A DNA stretch of 26,043 nt, taken from positions 1 through 26,043 of the IMG/VR virus record IMGVR_UViG_3300019886_000021; one strand, given 5' to 3'. This DNA comes from a virus. The notes beneath the pieces are model-generated. The model was given only the letters and a program-made list of their open reading frames with translations, did not search any database and was not told the DNA's origin. Every line of letters begins with the position of its first letter. The stretch's first letter is position 1. Shown here piece by piece: positions 3,012 to 11,169 of this stretch. A program made the translations under genes and the position numbers.

Positions 3012-3950
3012 ATGCCACGTATTCGATCGATCAAGCCGCAGTTCGCGAGCGACGAGAAGCTGACCCTCGTCAGTCGCGACGCCCGCCTGACGTATGTGCT
3101 CATCTGGACCCAGTCCGACGACGAGGGGCTGCTCGGTGCGTCGACTCGCCAACTGCTTGGTGAACTCTACCCGTTGGATGATACGGTGACAGGAGCCGTG
3201 CTCGAGAGCTGGATCGCCGAACTGCTCGCCATCAAGGTCATTCGGATGCGCGAGACCCGGGACGGCGCGCGCGTCATCGAGACCGTGAAGTGGAAGGACC
3301 ACCAACGGATCGACAGGCCACAACCGTCGAAGCTGCGCGCACTTCTGAAGCCGCTGGCGGCGCATTCGACGAACGATTCGACGAACGATTCGACGAACGA
3401 TTCGACGAACGATTCGACGAACGATTCGCGACTGGAGGTAGGAGTAGGAGTTAAAAGCTTAACAGCGGGTAGTACTCACAGATCTGTGTTAGGGAGAAGC
3501 GCGTCCACAATTCGTGTGGATAACTCAAGCGCACCGCCCGCTGACCAGCCACCACCCGCTGAACCGCAACCACCCGCTCCGCTGTCCTCTCGCGAGGACG
3601 TGAACGGCAACGGCGCCAGCAACGGCCCCCGCCCGCTGCTGCCCGAGGCCGCCTTCAACCTCCTCGCGGCGTTCTACCGGCGTGCCACTCCCGAGCGCTA
3701 CGCCGACGTGCTCCGCCAGCTCGGGGAGACGCTCACTGATGGCGGCACCAGGTTCGAGCGCGACTGGGTGCGTGCCGTCGACGACAAGCACCTCGAGTGG
3801 GCCTGCGTGCAGACCATCCGCGCCGGACCCCAAGATCACGGCAAGGCCATCGTGTTCGTGCTGAAAAAGCTGCGCGACACGCGGCTCGAGGTGCTCTCGG
3901 CCAGGACCAAGGTGAGCGAAGCGCGGCCCCCTCTTCCCGCGGAGACCTGA
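3012..3950 (+). CDS. Replication-initiator-like protein (winged helix, low-complexity linker, C-terminal domain)
   Basis: 312 residues. The N-terminus RIRSIKPQFASDEKL..SRDARLTYVLIW..SDDEG is the hallmark of a widespread phage protein group with an N-terminal winged helix, usually annotated as replication or hypothetical proteins; the domain spans about 1-105. Residues 120-139 are five TNDS repeats, followed by a Pro/Ser-rich linker to about 205. The C-terminal part (about 208-300) has helical segments (LLAAFYRRATPERYADVL) and could contact a replisome partner. The layout, an initiator with repeats and an A+T-richer tract inside its own gene, resembles lambda O and its internal origin; that parallel is inference. 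Only a weak Shine-Dalgarno (gagga, 2995-2999) precedes the ATG, with 12 bases of spacing. Confidence 0.68.
   Translation: MPRIRSIKPQFASDEKLTLVSRDARLTYVLIWTQSDDEGLLGASTRQLLGELYPLDDTVTGAVLESWIAELLAIKVIRMRETRDGARVIETVKWKDHQRIDRPQPSKLRALLKPLAAHSTNDSTNDSTNDSTNDSTNDSRLEVGVGVKSLTAGSTHRSVLGRSASTIRVDNSSAPPADQPPPAEPQPPAPLSSREDVNGNGASNGPRPLLPEAAFNLLAAFYRRATPERYADVLRQLGETLTDGGTRFERDWVRAVDDKHLEWACVQTIRAGPQDHGKAIVFVLKKLRDTRLEVLSARTKVSEARPPLPAET
3369..3428 (+). repeat. Five perfect 12-bp direct repeats (iteron-like)
   Basis: acgaacgattcg is repeated five times without a mismatch and without spacers, encoding TNDS five times. G+C is 6 of 12 per unit, well below the surroundings. The array lies in the linker of the replication-initiator-like gene, next to an A+T-richer tract, where lambdoid phages carry origin iterons. 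Confidence 0.9.
3504..3523. promoter_or_regulatory. DnaA-box-like site within an inverted repeat
   Basis: tccaca (3504-3509) and tgtgga (3515-3520) form a perfect inverted repeat around a five-base centre. The right arm extends to tgtggataa, a perfect DnaA box on the minus strand. It lies 86 bases after the last iteron. A chance match of nine bases is possible but is less likely in DNA this rich in G+C. Confidence 0.45.
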
Positions 3951-3955
3951 CCCGG

Positions 3956-4171
3956 ATGCGCGCGCAGCGACCCGCGGAACTGGATGATCTCGACCGATGT
4001 GCACGGCCGGTGGTCGCGCGGGGTGTCGCCGACGTCGACGCCGCCTGTCGCGAGCTGGAGGCGTCACACCAGCGCCACGTGCGCCGAGCCCGCGCCGTGC
4101 GCGTCGCCGCGTGGTGCTGCTTCGCGATCGCGCTCGCCATGTGCGCGGCCGTCGCCTGGTCCAGGCCGTGA
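3956..4171 (+). CDS. Small single-pass membrane protein
   Basis: 71 residues, starting six bases after the previous stop. The N-terminal 45 residues are charged (AELDDLDRCARPVV... ELEASHQRHVRRARAVR). One hydrophobic helix follows at about 48-68 (VAAWCCFAIALAMCAAVAW), ending close to the C-terminus. This gives a tail-anchored or N-in topology. No family is recognised. Holin or spanin roles are conceivable for phage membrane proteins, but no lysis gene is adjacent, so I leave it unassigned. Its stop overlaps the next GTG start (GTGA). Confidence 0.6.
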   Translation: MRAQRPAELDDLDRCARPVVARGVADVDAACRELEASHQRHVRRARAVRVAAWCCFAIALAMCAAVAWSRP

Positions 4172-4602
4172 CCACCACGCTTCAGGTCGCCACGGCGCCG
4201 CATGTCCGGAGCGAGAAGGCGGAGGAGCATCGCTGCGATACCTTCGCCGCGTGCTACGCGGGCCGCGATCGCGTCGTCCGGTTCTCGCAGCCGCGGCACA
4301 CGATGCAGACCTTGGGCATTCCCGATCGCCGGTACCGGCTCGCCGGCGTGGCGTTCTGGTTTGAGGTCAAACACCAGGCCGGACGGTTGAGAACTGAGCA
4401 GGTAGAGTTCCTGGAGGCCGAGCTCGCGTATGGGTGCCCAGCCGCGTGCGGGACACTGGACGATCTCGTGGCCTATGTCAGCGCGCTCGTGGGAGCACCC
4501 TACGGCGCGTCGCGCGTGGCGCTCGCGTGCGAACTCGGGAAGCGTCTGATCGAGAAATACCGGGTGCCGGCGAAGGTCGCCCGGCGTGGCAAGCTCCGGT
4601 GA
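4168..4602 (+). CDS. VRR-NUC-like nuclease
   Basis: 144 residues with a GTG start in a GTGA overlap. The pattern of the VRR-NUC branch of PD-(D/E)XK nucleases is visible: an early acidic helix (EKAEEH, about 16-21), GIPD (50-53), FEVKHQAGRL (65-74) containing the E-x-K pair (E66, K68), then Q78 and FLEAELAYGC, with DDLVAYV resembling the usual terminal strand and helix. VRR-NUC proteins are stand-alone phage nucleases or part of Fan1-type enzymes and act on branched or flapped DNA. Here it probably serves replication, recombination or packaging. The C-terminus is basic. The fold call is moderate to good; the substrate is unknown. Confidence 0.72.
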   Translation: MTTTLQVATAPHVRSEKAEEHRCDTFAACYAGRDRVVRFSQPRHTMQTLGIPDRRYRLAGVAFWFEVKHQAGRLRTEQVEFLEAELAYGCPAACGTLDDLVAYVSALVGAPYGASRVALACELGKRLIEKYRVPAKVARRGKLR

Positions 4603-5057
4603 GGAATGCCAGCAACCGCCCGGTGCCCCGCCGCTTCGCGCGTGAAGCCGTCCGCGAGCCGCACGCCCTGTGCCGCGTGCCTGGTTGCGCGGGGTCGCTG
4701 CGCTTCGTGACGGATAGCTTGGGCCGCATCGTCGACATCTGCCTCGGCTGTGAGCGGCGCGTGGAGTACGTCCGTGCGCTCGAGGCGATGTGCGGCATCA
4801 GTCGGCCGCCCGGCGCCCCCTGCCGCCCGCCCGCCCGCGCGCGCATTGCGGGGGCGACACCGCTCAAGATCCTCGCGCTCCTCAAGCGCCATGCGCGCGC
4901 GGTCGGCGTCGCGCGCATCGCCACGGAGCTCGGCAGTCCGCGGGGCCGAGTGGACGCGGCCTGTTCGGGCTTGGTGCGCGACGGGCTCATCACGCGCGAG
5001 CGCCGCGGGCGCTACACGCTCGCGCCCGCCACTCCACCTCCGCTGAGGTCCGCATGA
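4599..5057 (+). CDS. Zinc ribbon plus winged helix-turn-helix DNA-binding protein
   Basis: 152 residues with a GTG start in a GTGA overlap. An N-terminal zinc-ribbon-like site is formed by C25 (CRVPGC), C30, C48 and C51 (CLGC). A Pro/Arg-rich linker follows, then a winged helix at about 87-141: PLKILALLKRHARAVGVARI, SPRGRVDAACSGLVRDGLI as recognition region, and TRERRGRYTLA as wing. Such proteins usually regulate transcription. Its place just before the terminase genes makes a switch to late genes conceivable, but that is inference. The next gene starts in an ATGA overlap. Confidence 0.68.
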   Translation: MRNASNRPVPRRFAREAVREPHALCRVPGCAGSLRFVTDSLGRIVDICLGCERRVEYVRALEAMCGISRPPGAPCRPPARARIAGATPLKILALLKRHARAVGVARIATELGSPRGRVDAACSGLVRDGLITRERRGRYTLAPATPPPLRSA

Positions 5058-5296
5058 CCCCACCACGCCCGGAAGATTGGGATTACCGCATCCTGCAGAT
5101 CCGCGACGCGCCGAGTTTGGAAGCGGCCACGGCCGTCGGCTGCGAGATCTTCACCAAGGACGGCTTCGAAGTCCTGCAGTACGTCGGGCTCGACACGGCG
5201 GTGCATCCGCCGGCCTTCCGGTTCCTCGCGCGGCGGCGCAAGAAGCAGATCGTCATAGCTGATCGCTTGCCTAGCGGGCCGGAGCACGTAGCGTGA
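5054..5296 (+). CDS. Small hypothetical protein (weakly DUF4177-like)
   Basis: 80 residues. The start is fixed by ATGA overlap with the previous gene and the end by GTGA overlap with the terminase small subunit. WDYRILQI, then a helix (SLEAATAVGCEIFTKDGFEV), LQYVGLD, and a basic FRFLARRRKK strand follow the layout of DUF4177-type proteins (YKVV..., GWELV..., FLKR). The match is only by eye, and no function is known for that family. The coupling on both sides supports it as a real gene. Confidence 0.55.
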   Translation: MTPPRPEDWDYRILQIRDAPSLEAATAVGCEIFTKDGFEVLQYVGLDTAVHPPAFRFLARRRKKQIVIADRLPSGPEHVA

Positions 5297-5805: not shown

Positions 5806-7619
5806 TGCCGGCCGTGGCCCTGTTCGACCTGGACGCCGCCGTCGGGCCGCTCGGTCAGGACTTGACGGGGCTGACGGCGAACGACATCGACGTCGTCCTG
5901 CTGTCGGTGCGCGGCTTCCAGACGAGCGACGTGCTCACGGGCGCCGTCTTCACGGCGAAGGTCGCCCTCACCGACAGCGACACGGCGCCGACGACGATCC
6001 AGAAGACGTGGACGCCGACAACCCCCACGGGGCCGCTCCTGCCGAGCATAACGGCGCTCAGCCCCACGGCCTTCCTGCTCGCCTTCCCGCTCGTGCAGAG
6101 CGACACCCTGGCCCTCCTCGTGCCGCGGTTCTACAGCGTGCGCGTGAGCCTCCTGCGGCAGGGCATTGCGTACACGCGCACGCTCCAGACGGGCGTGGTG
6201 TCGGCCGTGCTGGGCTGGACGACCTTGGGGGGCGCATACGACGCGATCACGCTGCAGGCCGCGGAGCGCGTGGCCCTCACCGGGCAGTTGGGGTTCGTCA
6301 CGGCGGGCGCGATGACCGACGCGCACCTGCTCGCGGCCGTGGGGCTGGGGTGCTACTGGAAATACTCCGGCAGCTTGGGATCGCGCAGCGACCTCAACCC
6401 CTTCACGCGCGCGAGCACCGCCTATCAGCTGAGCGCATCCGGCATCTGGACGAGCGTGGGCAACAACGTGCTGCGCGACGGGCACTATCTCCTCGACGGC
6501 CTCCAGCGCACGCTGCTGGAGCGCGCGTCACTGAATAGCGCGCTCTGGTCGAGCGATGCGTCGAATGCGGCATGGGGGAAGGCCAACCTCGGCACGCTCA
6601 CGCCGGTCACCTCGTGTATCGCCGGGCAAGTCGCGCAGAAGCTGACGACCGCCGGGCTCGGGAATCCGGGTCAGGTCTTTCAGAATATCGGAACATTTGT
6701 CAACGGACAGACGGATACCCTCTATTTCATCGTCGAGAACGTCAATGCGGTTGCCTCGTCGCTCGGGATTTACGATGCTACGGCCGGCGCGTGGGTCTGT
6801 CTCGTGAATTATACGTGGGCGACCGGGGCGACGACGCTGAATCAGGGGACGGGGACCTTCGGCTCGCTCCTGCTCAAGGCCGTGGGGCCGAACGATGGCG
6901 CGCTCGCGCTGATCTGGGTGAGTGGTACTGGCACGGGCGCGGGCACCGGCGCGGCTGGGAATGGTCGTAGGGTCTATCTCTATCCGACCGGAACCGGAAG
7001 CAACGCGCTCGCCACGATCTTCCATCACGGCCAGTTCGAGGCGACCTTCGCGAACTCGACGAGCCCGATCGTAACGGGCGCCGCGGGCGTCTCGCGGTCG
7101 GTCGACAGCACGCTCAACTTCCCCTTCGTCCCGACCGCCGCGCAGTGCGCCGCGCTGGGCGTGACACTCTACGACGACCTCATCATGCTTCGCGCATCGC
7201 TGCAGACCTTCCAGAGTGCGACCACCGTGCTGGGTGGCACGCAGGTCGGCGGAGTGAACATCTTCGAGCTCTGGAATGGCTCCGCGGGCGAAGGCCAGCC
7301 CGTGACGGCGCAGCTGCGCGGCGCCGCTGGGACAACGTCCGAGTCGGATGCGACGGCGCTCGCCTTCGTGCCGGGCGATCGACTGCAACGCATGGTGACG
7401 ATCTCGCCGCTCGGCGCGGTCACGATCACGGTCGTCAAGAATGGCGGGTCGCCCTCGACGACGACGGGGACGGGGCTCGCCGGGGGCTGGCCGGCGGCCT
7501 TCACCGCGGCCGTCCTCACACTCAACGACAACAACGCCAACCGCAGCGGCGACATGGCGCGCACGACGGCGGTGCTCGCCCTTGGCGTCCAGACCTTGGC
7601 GACGATGGCGGCGCTCTGA
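5805..7619 (+). CDS. Fibre-like virion protein with Ig-like N-terminal module and carbohydrate-binding-type domains
   Basis: 604 residues. Residues 1-135 carry a module with VFTAKVALTDSDTA and TTIQKTW, then SVRVSLLRQG, typical of BppU-like or Ig-like upper-fibre domains. NPFTRAS (198-204), LLERASL (237-243) and SDASNAAWGK (250-259) are the usual opening of the carbohydrate-binding-type beta domains seen in phage fibres. VSRSVDSTLNFPF and later strands look like a second lamin-G-like sheet domain. A receptor-binding or decoration role is inferred. Its position between the terminase genes is unusual. Bases 6661-6780 drop to 60 of 120 G+C, suggesting a swapped module. The short gene at 8609 is a paralogue of the N-terminal module. 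Confidence 0.72.
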   Translation: MPAVALFDLDAAVGPLGQDLTGLTANDIDVVLLSVRGFQTSDVLTGAVFTAKVALTDSDTAPTTIQKTWTPTTPTGPLLPSITALSPTAFLLAFPLVQSDTLALLVPRFYSVRVSLLRQGIAYTRTLQTGVVSAVLGWTTLGGAYDAITLQAAERVALTGQLGFVTAGAMTDAHLLAAVGLGCYWKYSGSLGSRSDLNPFTRASTAYQLSASGIWTSVGNNVLRDGHYLLDGLQRTLLERASLNSALWSSDASNAAWGKANLGTLTPVTSCIAGQVAQKLTTAGLGNPGQVFQNIGTFVNGQTDTLYFIVENVNAVASSLGIYDATAGAWVCLVNYTWATGATTLNQGTGTFGSLLLKAVGPNDGALALIWVSGTGTGAGTGAAGNGRRVYLYPTGTGSNALATIFHHGQFEATFANSTSPIVTGAAGVSRSVDSTLNFPFVPTAAQCAALGVTLYDDLIMLRASLQTFQSATTVLGGTQVGGVNIFELWNGSAGEGQPVTAQLRGAAGTTSESDATALAFVPGDRLQRMVTISPLGAVTITVVKNGGSPSTTTGTGLAGGWPAAFTAAVLTLNDNNANRSGDMARTTAVLALGVQTLATMAAL

Positions 7620-9554: not shown

Positions 9555-11169
9555 CGGGCGCGGGCTCGACGCCGCGCGCGCCGAGGCGATCGAGGACGAA
9601 GTCGCGCGGCGCTCCTTCCCAGGCTGGGCGCGCCAGCGGTTTCACATCCTCAACAAACGCGAACGCGACGAGCTCCTCGTCCTGAACCGCCCACAGCGCG
9701 AGCTCCTGGCGGCCGAAGCGCGCATGCTGCACGAGGCCGGCCGCGCGCGCCTCATGGCGCTGAAAGGTCGCCAAGGCGGCGTGACCACGTATGCGCAGGC
9801 CCGGGCGCTCCACGCGGTCTTCGAGGAGTACGGCGCCGCGGCGCTCACGGTCGCCGACACCGGCCAGCGCACCACCGACATCTTCGACAAGGTCACTGGC
9901 TACGCCGTCCAGCGCTACGATCCGAGGAAGCGTCCGGTGCTCGGCAAGGCACGCACCCACGAGATCACCGTGCCCGCGCTCTCCTCCTCGTTCTACACGG
10001 CGACCGCGGGGACGGGGGACACCGGCCTCGGGCTCACGCTCCGCCGCATTCACGGCTCGGAGTTTGCGTTCTGGGAGAAGCCCCGGGCGACCTTGAACGC
10101 GATGGCGCCCTCGGTGAACCGCGACGGCACGACGATTCTCCTGGAGACCACGGCCTCGGTGTTCGGCTCCGAGGCTCACGCCTTCTGGCGTGAGGCGCGC
10201 GACGGGAAAAATGGCTACCGCGCGATCTTTATTCCGTGGTGGCTCTGCGATCCGCTGACCTATCGCGCCCCGCTCGGTGCACCCGATGAGCTCGGCCGCT
10301 TGGAAGAGGACGAGACGCTCCTCCACACGCGGCACGGCGTCACGCTCGAGGAACTTAAGTGGCGCCGGCTCCAGATCCGGGAGTACGGCGGCCGTGACGA
10401 GTTCCTGCAGCAATACCCCGAGGACGACGAGAGCTGCTGGCTCTCCGCGGGCGGCATGTACTTCAGCGGCGAGCACCTCAAGGCCCTGCTCTTGCAGGCG
10501 CCGGCGCCGCTCCGCATCGAGCGCGGTGGCGAGCTCGAAGTGTTCAGCGAACTCCAGGCACGGGAACGCGCGATCGGCGGCTGCGACACGGCCGAGGGCG
10601 TCGGCGGCGACAGCGCGACGATCGTCTTTCGCGCGTTCCCGTCGTGGCGGCTTTTGCGCACCTACACGTCGAACACGGTCCGGCCGAAAGAGTTCGCCGC
10701 CATCGTGAATGAAGAGGCGCGTGGCTTGGGGCGCGCCTTCCTCGTCATCGAGAAGAACATGCACGGCATCACCGTGCTCACCCATCTCCGCGACGATCAC
10801 CGCTACCCGGTCCAGGCGCTCTATCACCGGCAGCCGTTGGACCAAGCGCAGCGCGAGGCGGGGGCGCGGATCGGGTGGGCCACGACGGAAGAATCGAAGC
10901 CGCTCATGCTCAGCGCCGGGCGTGAGCTGCTCACCGCCGCCGTCGCAGGCCACGCCGGCGTGCCGTGCGCCGCCGTACTGCGCGACGCGTTCCAAGTCAG
11001 GCGCGACGACAAGGGGAGGTACGACCTGAACGGCAAGGATCTGCTCGTCGCGGAGATGCTGTGCTGGCTCGGTCGTACGCCCGCGCCTGGCGGCGCGAGC
11101 GGCTTCGCGGATTTCGCGCGGGCCAAGCGCGCCAAGCCGATCGCAGAACCGGAGAGCGACGGCTTCTAA
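9529..11169 (+). CDS. terL: Terminase large subunit
   Basis: 546 residues from a TTG; no ATG or GTG lies upstream in frame before conserved sequence, so the exact start is uncertain. The ATPase domain has a Walker A variant LKGRQGGVTT (78-87), Walker B region RIHGSEFAFWE (173-183) and coupling motif TTILLETTAS (201-210). EFLQQYPEDDESCWLSAG links to an RNase H-like nuclease domain with IGGCDTAEGVGGDSA (D353), FLVIEKNMHG (E408) and KDLLVAEML (D504), the expected three acidic metal ligands. It pumps DNA into the prohead and makes the cuts at the start and end of packaging. Fibre-like genes separate it from the small subunit. A gap of 92 bases follows. Confidence 0.93.
   Translation: MPVSPTSRNGRGLDAARAEAIEDEVARRSFPGWARQRFHILNKRERDELLVLNRPQRELLAAEARMLHEAGRARLMALKGRQGGVTTYAQARALHAVFEEYGAAALTVADTGQRTTDIFDKVTGYAVQRYDPRKRPVLGKARTHEITVPALSSSFYTATAGTGDTGLGLTLRRIHGSEFAFWEKPRATLNAMAPSVNRDGTTILLETTASVFGSEAHAFWREARDGKNGYRAIFIPWWLCDPLTYRAPLGAPDELGRLEEDETLLHTRHGVTLEELKWRRLQIREYGGRDEFLQQYPEDDESCWLSAGGMYFSGEHLKALLLQAPAPLRIERGGELEVFSELQARERAIGGCDTAEGVGGDSATIVFRAFPSWRLLRTYTSNTVRPKEFAAIVNEEARGLGRAFLVIEKNMHGITVLTHLRDDHRYPVQALYHRQPLDQAQREAGARIGWATTEESKPLMLSAGRELLTAAVAGHAGVPCAAVLRDAFQVRRDDKGRYDLNGKDLLVAEMLCWLGRTPAPGGASGFADFARAKRAKPIAEPESDGF

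Follow-up and report, generated by a model that had tools for sequence, protein, structure and literature searches.

Positions 3364-3523 of the DNA analysed here very probably serve as a phage replication origin that lies within the gene encoding its own initiator and works by the mechanism proposed below. The window (i.e. the whole stretch of DNA that was analysed) is the IMG/VR virus record IMGVR_UViG_3300019886_000021, 26,043 bases of one strand with 69% G+C, and its terminase, portal and tail genes mark it as that of a tailed phage. Judged from sequence comparison, this in-gene origin is most probably lambda-like in build and belongs to a sequence family distinct from that of lambda O. A two-part stretch (iterons, followed by a GGA tract) recurs in the initiator gene of phages from many bacterial groups, and the comparison of homologous genes shows both parts to be selected at the DNA level across the family. 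The elements of the window are the following:

3012-3950, + strand: replication-initiation protein gene (312 aa), assigned by a phrog_1408 match, tblastn to phage initiators and an AlphaFold2 model; the product has a winged-helix N-domain (about residues 1-110), then a disordered linker, then a helical C-terminal domain
3363-3475, no strand: A+T-richer stretch over iterons and tract, a candidate unwinding region, about 20 points below the record mean
3364-3428, + strand: iterons, 5.4 copies (five full) of ATTCGACGAACG, a unit that includes the 9-base dyad TTCGACGAA; recognized by Tandem Repeats Finder, synonymous recoding and the dyad class of homologues
3434-3452, + (coding) strand: short GGA array (GGA at 3434, 3441 and 3447), supported by recoding and aligned to the tract of the close relative L005
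3504-3520, no strand: inverted repeat TCCACA-N5-TGTGGA, also present in L005, where the spacer has 6 bases
3515-3523, - strand: exact DnaA box TTATCCACA, with TTGTCCACA at the same place in L005

The initiator gene and its product

The protein encoded at 3012-3950 matched the PHROG ‘replication initiation protein’ profiles phrog_1408 (E = 5.5e-23) and phrog_2149 (E = 9.1e-20), and tblastn searches recovered initiators of Streptomyces, Mycobacterium, Gordonia, Arthrobacter, Enterobacter and Myxococcus phages, with 30-40% identity over the first 110 residues. Pfam and PDB sequence searches with the window protein gave nothing useful (no Pfam match). AlphaFold2 confidently modelled the N-domain as a winged helix (residues 11-110, approximately, at pLDDT > 90) and most of the linker at values below 50; the linker is predicted to be disordered, and the model bears out the earlier placement of the repeats in the linker of a winged-helix protein. 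Foldseek matches of the N-domain model were weak (best E = 4.6e-3) and included among the best, likewise weakly, 4pql and 4pt7 (E about 7e-3, TM about 0.49 on target), which we take to be plasmid RepA_N initiator structures from the work covered by the review PMC5703833.

In isolates, replication genes adjoin the homologues (DnaC-like in Mx8, helicase and SSB in Gsput1, DnaB-like helicase and SSB in Pitbull); downstream of the gene in the window itself, the profile search returned only weak nuclease-type matches. Elsewhere in the record, a ParB-like gene (920-2597; ParB_N, HTH_ParB) is seemingly split by a frame change near 1480-1500, continuing in the next frame; the cause may be an artefact of sequencing or assembly, or else a genuine frameshift. 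A 45-base tandem repeat (608-764, 3.5 copies, units like RRTYYERHRETIAAQ) lies within the ORF 354-923, and the left end of the record (70-492) encodes the C-terminal part of a DUF5131 protein.

Homologous linkers and selection on DNA

Profile searches recovered several hundred homologous loci (165 non-redundant at 75% identity; n = 160 in the recoding tests), and a single IMG/VR scan contained more than 500 candidate relatives; the family has members in phages of Proteobacteria, Actinobacteria and others; P0001 alone as scan query found no relatives, and profile scans were needed. The search for nearer relatives of the window returned only L005, whose phage (G001) otherwise shares with the window only a 45-base-repeat gene, at 84% DNA identity. 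The N-domain was also met on Klebsiella plasmids (hits H42-H54, annotated ‘DnaT-like ssDNA-binding domain-containing protein’), which suggests phage-plasmids or integrated phages.

The linkers share one plan, in which the end of the N-domain (...HQ..D.P..S...) is followed by short dyads and then by a tract of GGA units on the coding strand. The commonest dyad iterons are TCGCGA, TCG[AT]CGA (TCGWCGA) and TCANTGA, spaced by 10 or 11 bases or multiples thereof (about one helical turn), and because of this spacing a given word falls in different reading frames. Thus, TCGCGA, 20-fold enriched in the linker, has 62, 53 and 81 occurrences in the respective frames, TCG[AT]CGA (9-fold enriched) occurs in all three, and the common linker sequence SSRILANPRESS is a single DNA word in three frames. 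Where a word is present at least three times, at least two frames are used in 86 of 100 loci, and all three in 44.

We compared the repetitiveness of each linker with that of versions recoded synonymously according to the gene’s own codon usage. The real linkers were more repetitive in 132 of 160 cases (82%) at p <= 0.05 and in 115 at p <= 0.01, as against 7%, 16% and 18% in control zones of those genes. Since the iteron words stand in three frames and 82% of the linkers exceed recoding, selection acts on the DNA and not on the protein. The alignment of homologues, proposed as a check by the sequence-only reading, turned out in its favour: the iterons persist in place while the protein linkers vary. 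About one fifth of the linkers have no significant repeats, and that of Mx8 carries an endonuclease-like domain instead (p19, L002 about 9600-9860, GIY-YIG type T5orf172/MUG113). Endonuclease-like domains within the linker were also seen in L149 (HNH, 4002-5105) and, as an HNH-like Cys motif recognized by eye, in L070 (5001-6134).

The iteron word is associated with the class of the N-domain (Fisher 2e-14, confounded by descent): RMLAS-type N-domains had TCGCGA in 40 cases and TCGACGA in none, LKxE-type N-domains TCGACGA in 22 and TCGCGA in three. On the N-domain tree the word is clustered, with about 12 changes. The association supports, without proving, recognition of the word by the protein’s own N-domain, as shared descent contributes to it.

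The iteron array of the window

Tandem Repeats Finder delimits the array at 3364-3428 (period 12, 5.4 copies, 100% matches, consensus ATTCGACGAACG), and the five perfect 12-bp direct repeats noted beforehand are thereby confirmed, with full units starting at 3364, 3376, 3388, 3400 and 3412. The dyad TTCGACGAA first occupies 3365-3373 and recurs every 12 bases up to 3421. The longest short-lag self-match measures 53 bases, compared with 11-13 in dinucleotide-model shuffles, so that the repeat is beyond chance. Against synonymous recoding, the window’s linker gave p < 0.005 both in the iteron zone and in the tract zone, and its dyad class is also found in homologues (e.g., L069, L076, L079).

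The array is in frame (12 bases making four codons, STND) and of low complexity, its spacing of 12 bases is an outlier in a family with 10-11, and both unit and spacing differ in L005, the only close relative. Given how unusual this spacing is in the family, the perfect array may partly represent a recent in-frame expansion, and the perfect identity of five units, seen in one genome alone, could be explained by recent slippage. The selection on DNA that had been read from this identity is hence upheld by the family comparison, not by the identity itself.

The GGA array

In the family, GGA is threefold commoner in the 100 bases past the iterons than in the sequence further on, and neighbouring GGAs lie 5-8 bases apart in 78% of cases (40% exactly 5), versus 9% in the background. 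The array lies about 25 bases 3' of the iterons, with units such as GGATCAA, GGACC, GGAAG and similar; at least three GGA pairs at 5-8-base spacing occur in 109 of 160 linkers, and 108 exceed synonymous recoding (p <= 0.05). The signal is strand-specific, with a purine tract in the top 0.1% of its own locus at 105 of 161 loci and a pyrimidine tract at 11 of 161, and the iterons lie entirely upstream of the GGA tract in all 72 loci having both. Such arrays are also present in low-G+C members, in Actinobacteria phages and in one Bacteroidota genome. The tract of the window is a short counterpart of the longer arrays of its homologues, with more GGA pairs than synonymous recoding yields (p = 0.02); some 2.9 occurrences of window-like GGA triplets are to be expected on each strand of the record, and the tract taken alone is therefore unremarkable.

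The literature that we searched (coverage incomplete) describes in-gene origins (PMC7466680, PMC8022706, PMC5703833) and yielded no description of a GGA array. The array appears to be the new part, with a putative role at the origin. That it represents an undescribed class of origin element, serving strand opening or capture in place of an A+T-rich tract across several phyla, is in our estimate a serious possibility, somewhat short of probable.

A rather unlikely alternative, concerning the GGA tract only and compatible with the origin reading, is that the tract acts as RNA (Shine-Dalgarno-like, as CsrA-type sites, or through an R-loop during transcription) instead of as a DNA unwinding element. 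CsrA sites have GGA at their core, R-loops formed by purine RNA are stable, and the restriction of purine richness to the coding strand would fit either; however, the arrays extend to Actinobacteria phages and a Bacteroidota genome (groups that, to our knowledge, do not have CsrA), they stand 3' of the iterons wherever both occur, and an Rfam search of the window stretch matched no RNA family.

The A+T-richer stretch and the DnaA box

The A+T-richer tract that had been pointed out at 3431-3530 is borne out by a G+C content of 48% in a record of 69%; the iterons (3364-3428) reach 49%, and no 100-base segment of the 26 kb has less G+C than 3363-3462, which is equalled by one at 6673. Folded as a single strand, 3431-3530 is unremarkable (z = -1.0). 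Equally, the exact complement of a DnaA box at 3515-3523 does lie in an inverted repeat (3504-3520), the right arm of TCCACA-N5-TGTGGA being included in the box, and chance alone would give 0.01 exact matches to the box in the window. In L005 the left arm lies in a different reading frame and the spacer has 6 bases instead of 5, yet the dyad is retained, a further sign that the DNA is under selection. Past the GGA tract and ahead of the DnaA dyad stands a perfect 12-base palindrome (CACAGATCTGTG, 3477-3488), and its core AGATCT is also found in L005.

The A+T tract and the DnaA box are present in the window and do not extend to the family at large, where the mean G+C dip amounts to about 2-3 points and TT[AG]TCCACA occurs, from the linker onward, in only 4 of 149 homologous genes (DnaA boxes being accordingly rare). 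Both were dropped as general family features after these homologue tests.

Proposed mechanism and alternatives

We reason that the winged-helix N-domain would bind the TTCGACGAA dyads, with roughly one copy of the protein for each helical turn, in an O-some-like complex, which would strain and open the adjoining GGA/A+T-richer tract. The opened strands might be held by the initiator or by a helicase loader, and the C-terminal domain would then recruit the replicative helicase of the phage or of the host. In the window phage and its nearest relative, DnaA of the host may assist after recruitment through the DnaA-box dyad. The linker of the protein would be mainly a tether, accepting whatever amino acids the DNA signal encodes.

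A minimum of the cumulative GC skew, envisaged as a further check, is absent at the site, where the curve is near its maximum (a test of little power); over a set of nine related phages (that of the window and eight others), the rank of the initiator gene on the skew curve is scattered (0.01-0.94) and uninformative. The gene being unmarked by skew would suit an improbable alternative, namely that the repeats form an autoregulation operator or another binding cluster of the same initiator, with the origin elsewhere, and the iterons of plasmid initiators often do serve also as regulatory sites. Against it, the sites lie more than 350 bases into the coding region and not at a promoter, their place matches that of the origins of lambda and P22, and a second conserved element of the DNA comes after them; moreover, the annotators of P22 and L put the origin in the matching part of the initiator genes (PMC8022706). 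That the array is a functionless product of slippage in a disordered linker is highly improbable: its perfect, in-frame, low-complexity units, its deviant spacing and the different unit and spacing of L005 would agree with it, but homologues spaced at 10 or 11 bases read one DNA word in different frames, for which slippage with selection on the protein does not account, nor do repeats in the protein, and both the excess over recoding in 82% of linkers and the fixed order of the two elements speak against it.

Implications of the origin reading

The in-gene origin that we favour can be summarized as a rule: some 350 bases past the start of the initiator gene, short dyad iterons recur at intervals of one helical turn, and a GGA array comes after them. 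The rule predicts origins for a large initiator family (the more than 500 candidates of the IMG/VR scan). For most of these phages, no mapped origin is known to us. The GGA array offers a testable candidate for origin opening in a G+C-rich genome that has no strong A+T tract, and the occurrence of one DNA word in all three frames shows clearly how a signal in the DNA can impose the amino acids of a protein.

Comparison with known in-gene origins

In plasmids of the pSK41 type, the winged-helix N-domain of the RepA_N Rep protein binds Rep boxes located centrally in the rep gene, and the origin-encoded linker is dispensable as protein (PMC5703833). The window resembles these plasmids in that its putative origin falls in the linker-coding part of the gene, and 4pql and 4pt7 are among the best, though weak, structural matches of its protein; unlike here, those plasmids are from low-G+C Firmicutes and have an A+T-rich origin, and the two show no sequence match. 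Among RepA phages, no repeats were found in Miko and Jeeves, whose origin was placed within or beside repA (PMC7157519), whereas the RepA-like proteins that we find in the family of the window protein are those of BigNuz and Pitbull, with linkers that contain iterons and purine GGA-type tracts.

In phage L, repeats within the initiator gene 18 were proposed as origin (PMC8022706). The annotated rep_origin of P22 covers nucleotides 353-497 of gene 18 and the phage L repeats about 397-473. The window shares with both the location of repeats inside the initiator gene; it differs in the sequence of its units (that of phage L has 11 bases, TGTCCAACGGA) and in having a GGA array where they have an A+T-rich tract.

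Lambda carries its origin iterons in the middle of gene O, followed by an unwinding region (PMC7466680). In keeping with the claim that the repeats occupy the same relative place as those of lambda O, the annotated lambda iterons (NC_001416) span nucleotides 349-433 of O and those of the window nucleotides 353-417 of their gene, in both cases between the DNA-binding N-domain and the C-terminal part and at equal distance from the start codon. G+C dips by about 10 points after or over the iterons in lambda and P22, and from 60-69% down to 48% in the window. The lambda iterons measure 18 bases at a spacing of 20-24, in contrast to dyads of 6-9 bases at 10-12 here, and an A+T-rich tract takes the place of the GGA array. 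With hhalign, neither lambda O nor P22 gp18 showed detectable similarity to the window protein (probability < 1%), and the N-domain HMM leaves lambda O (E = 0.65), P22 gp18 (0.41) and phage L gp18 (0.08) outside this sequence family. ‘Lambda-type’, as the sequence-only reading had it, thus holds for the architecture of the putative origin, not for kinship of the protein sequences.
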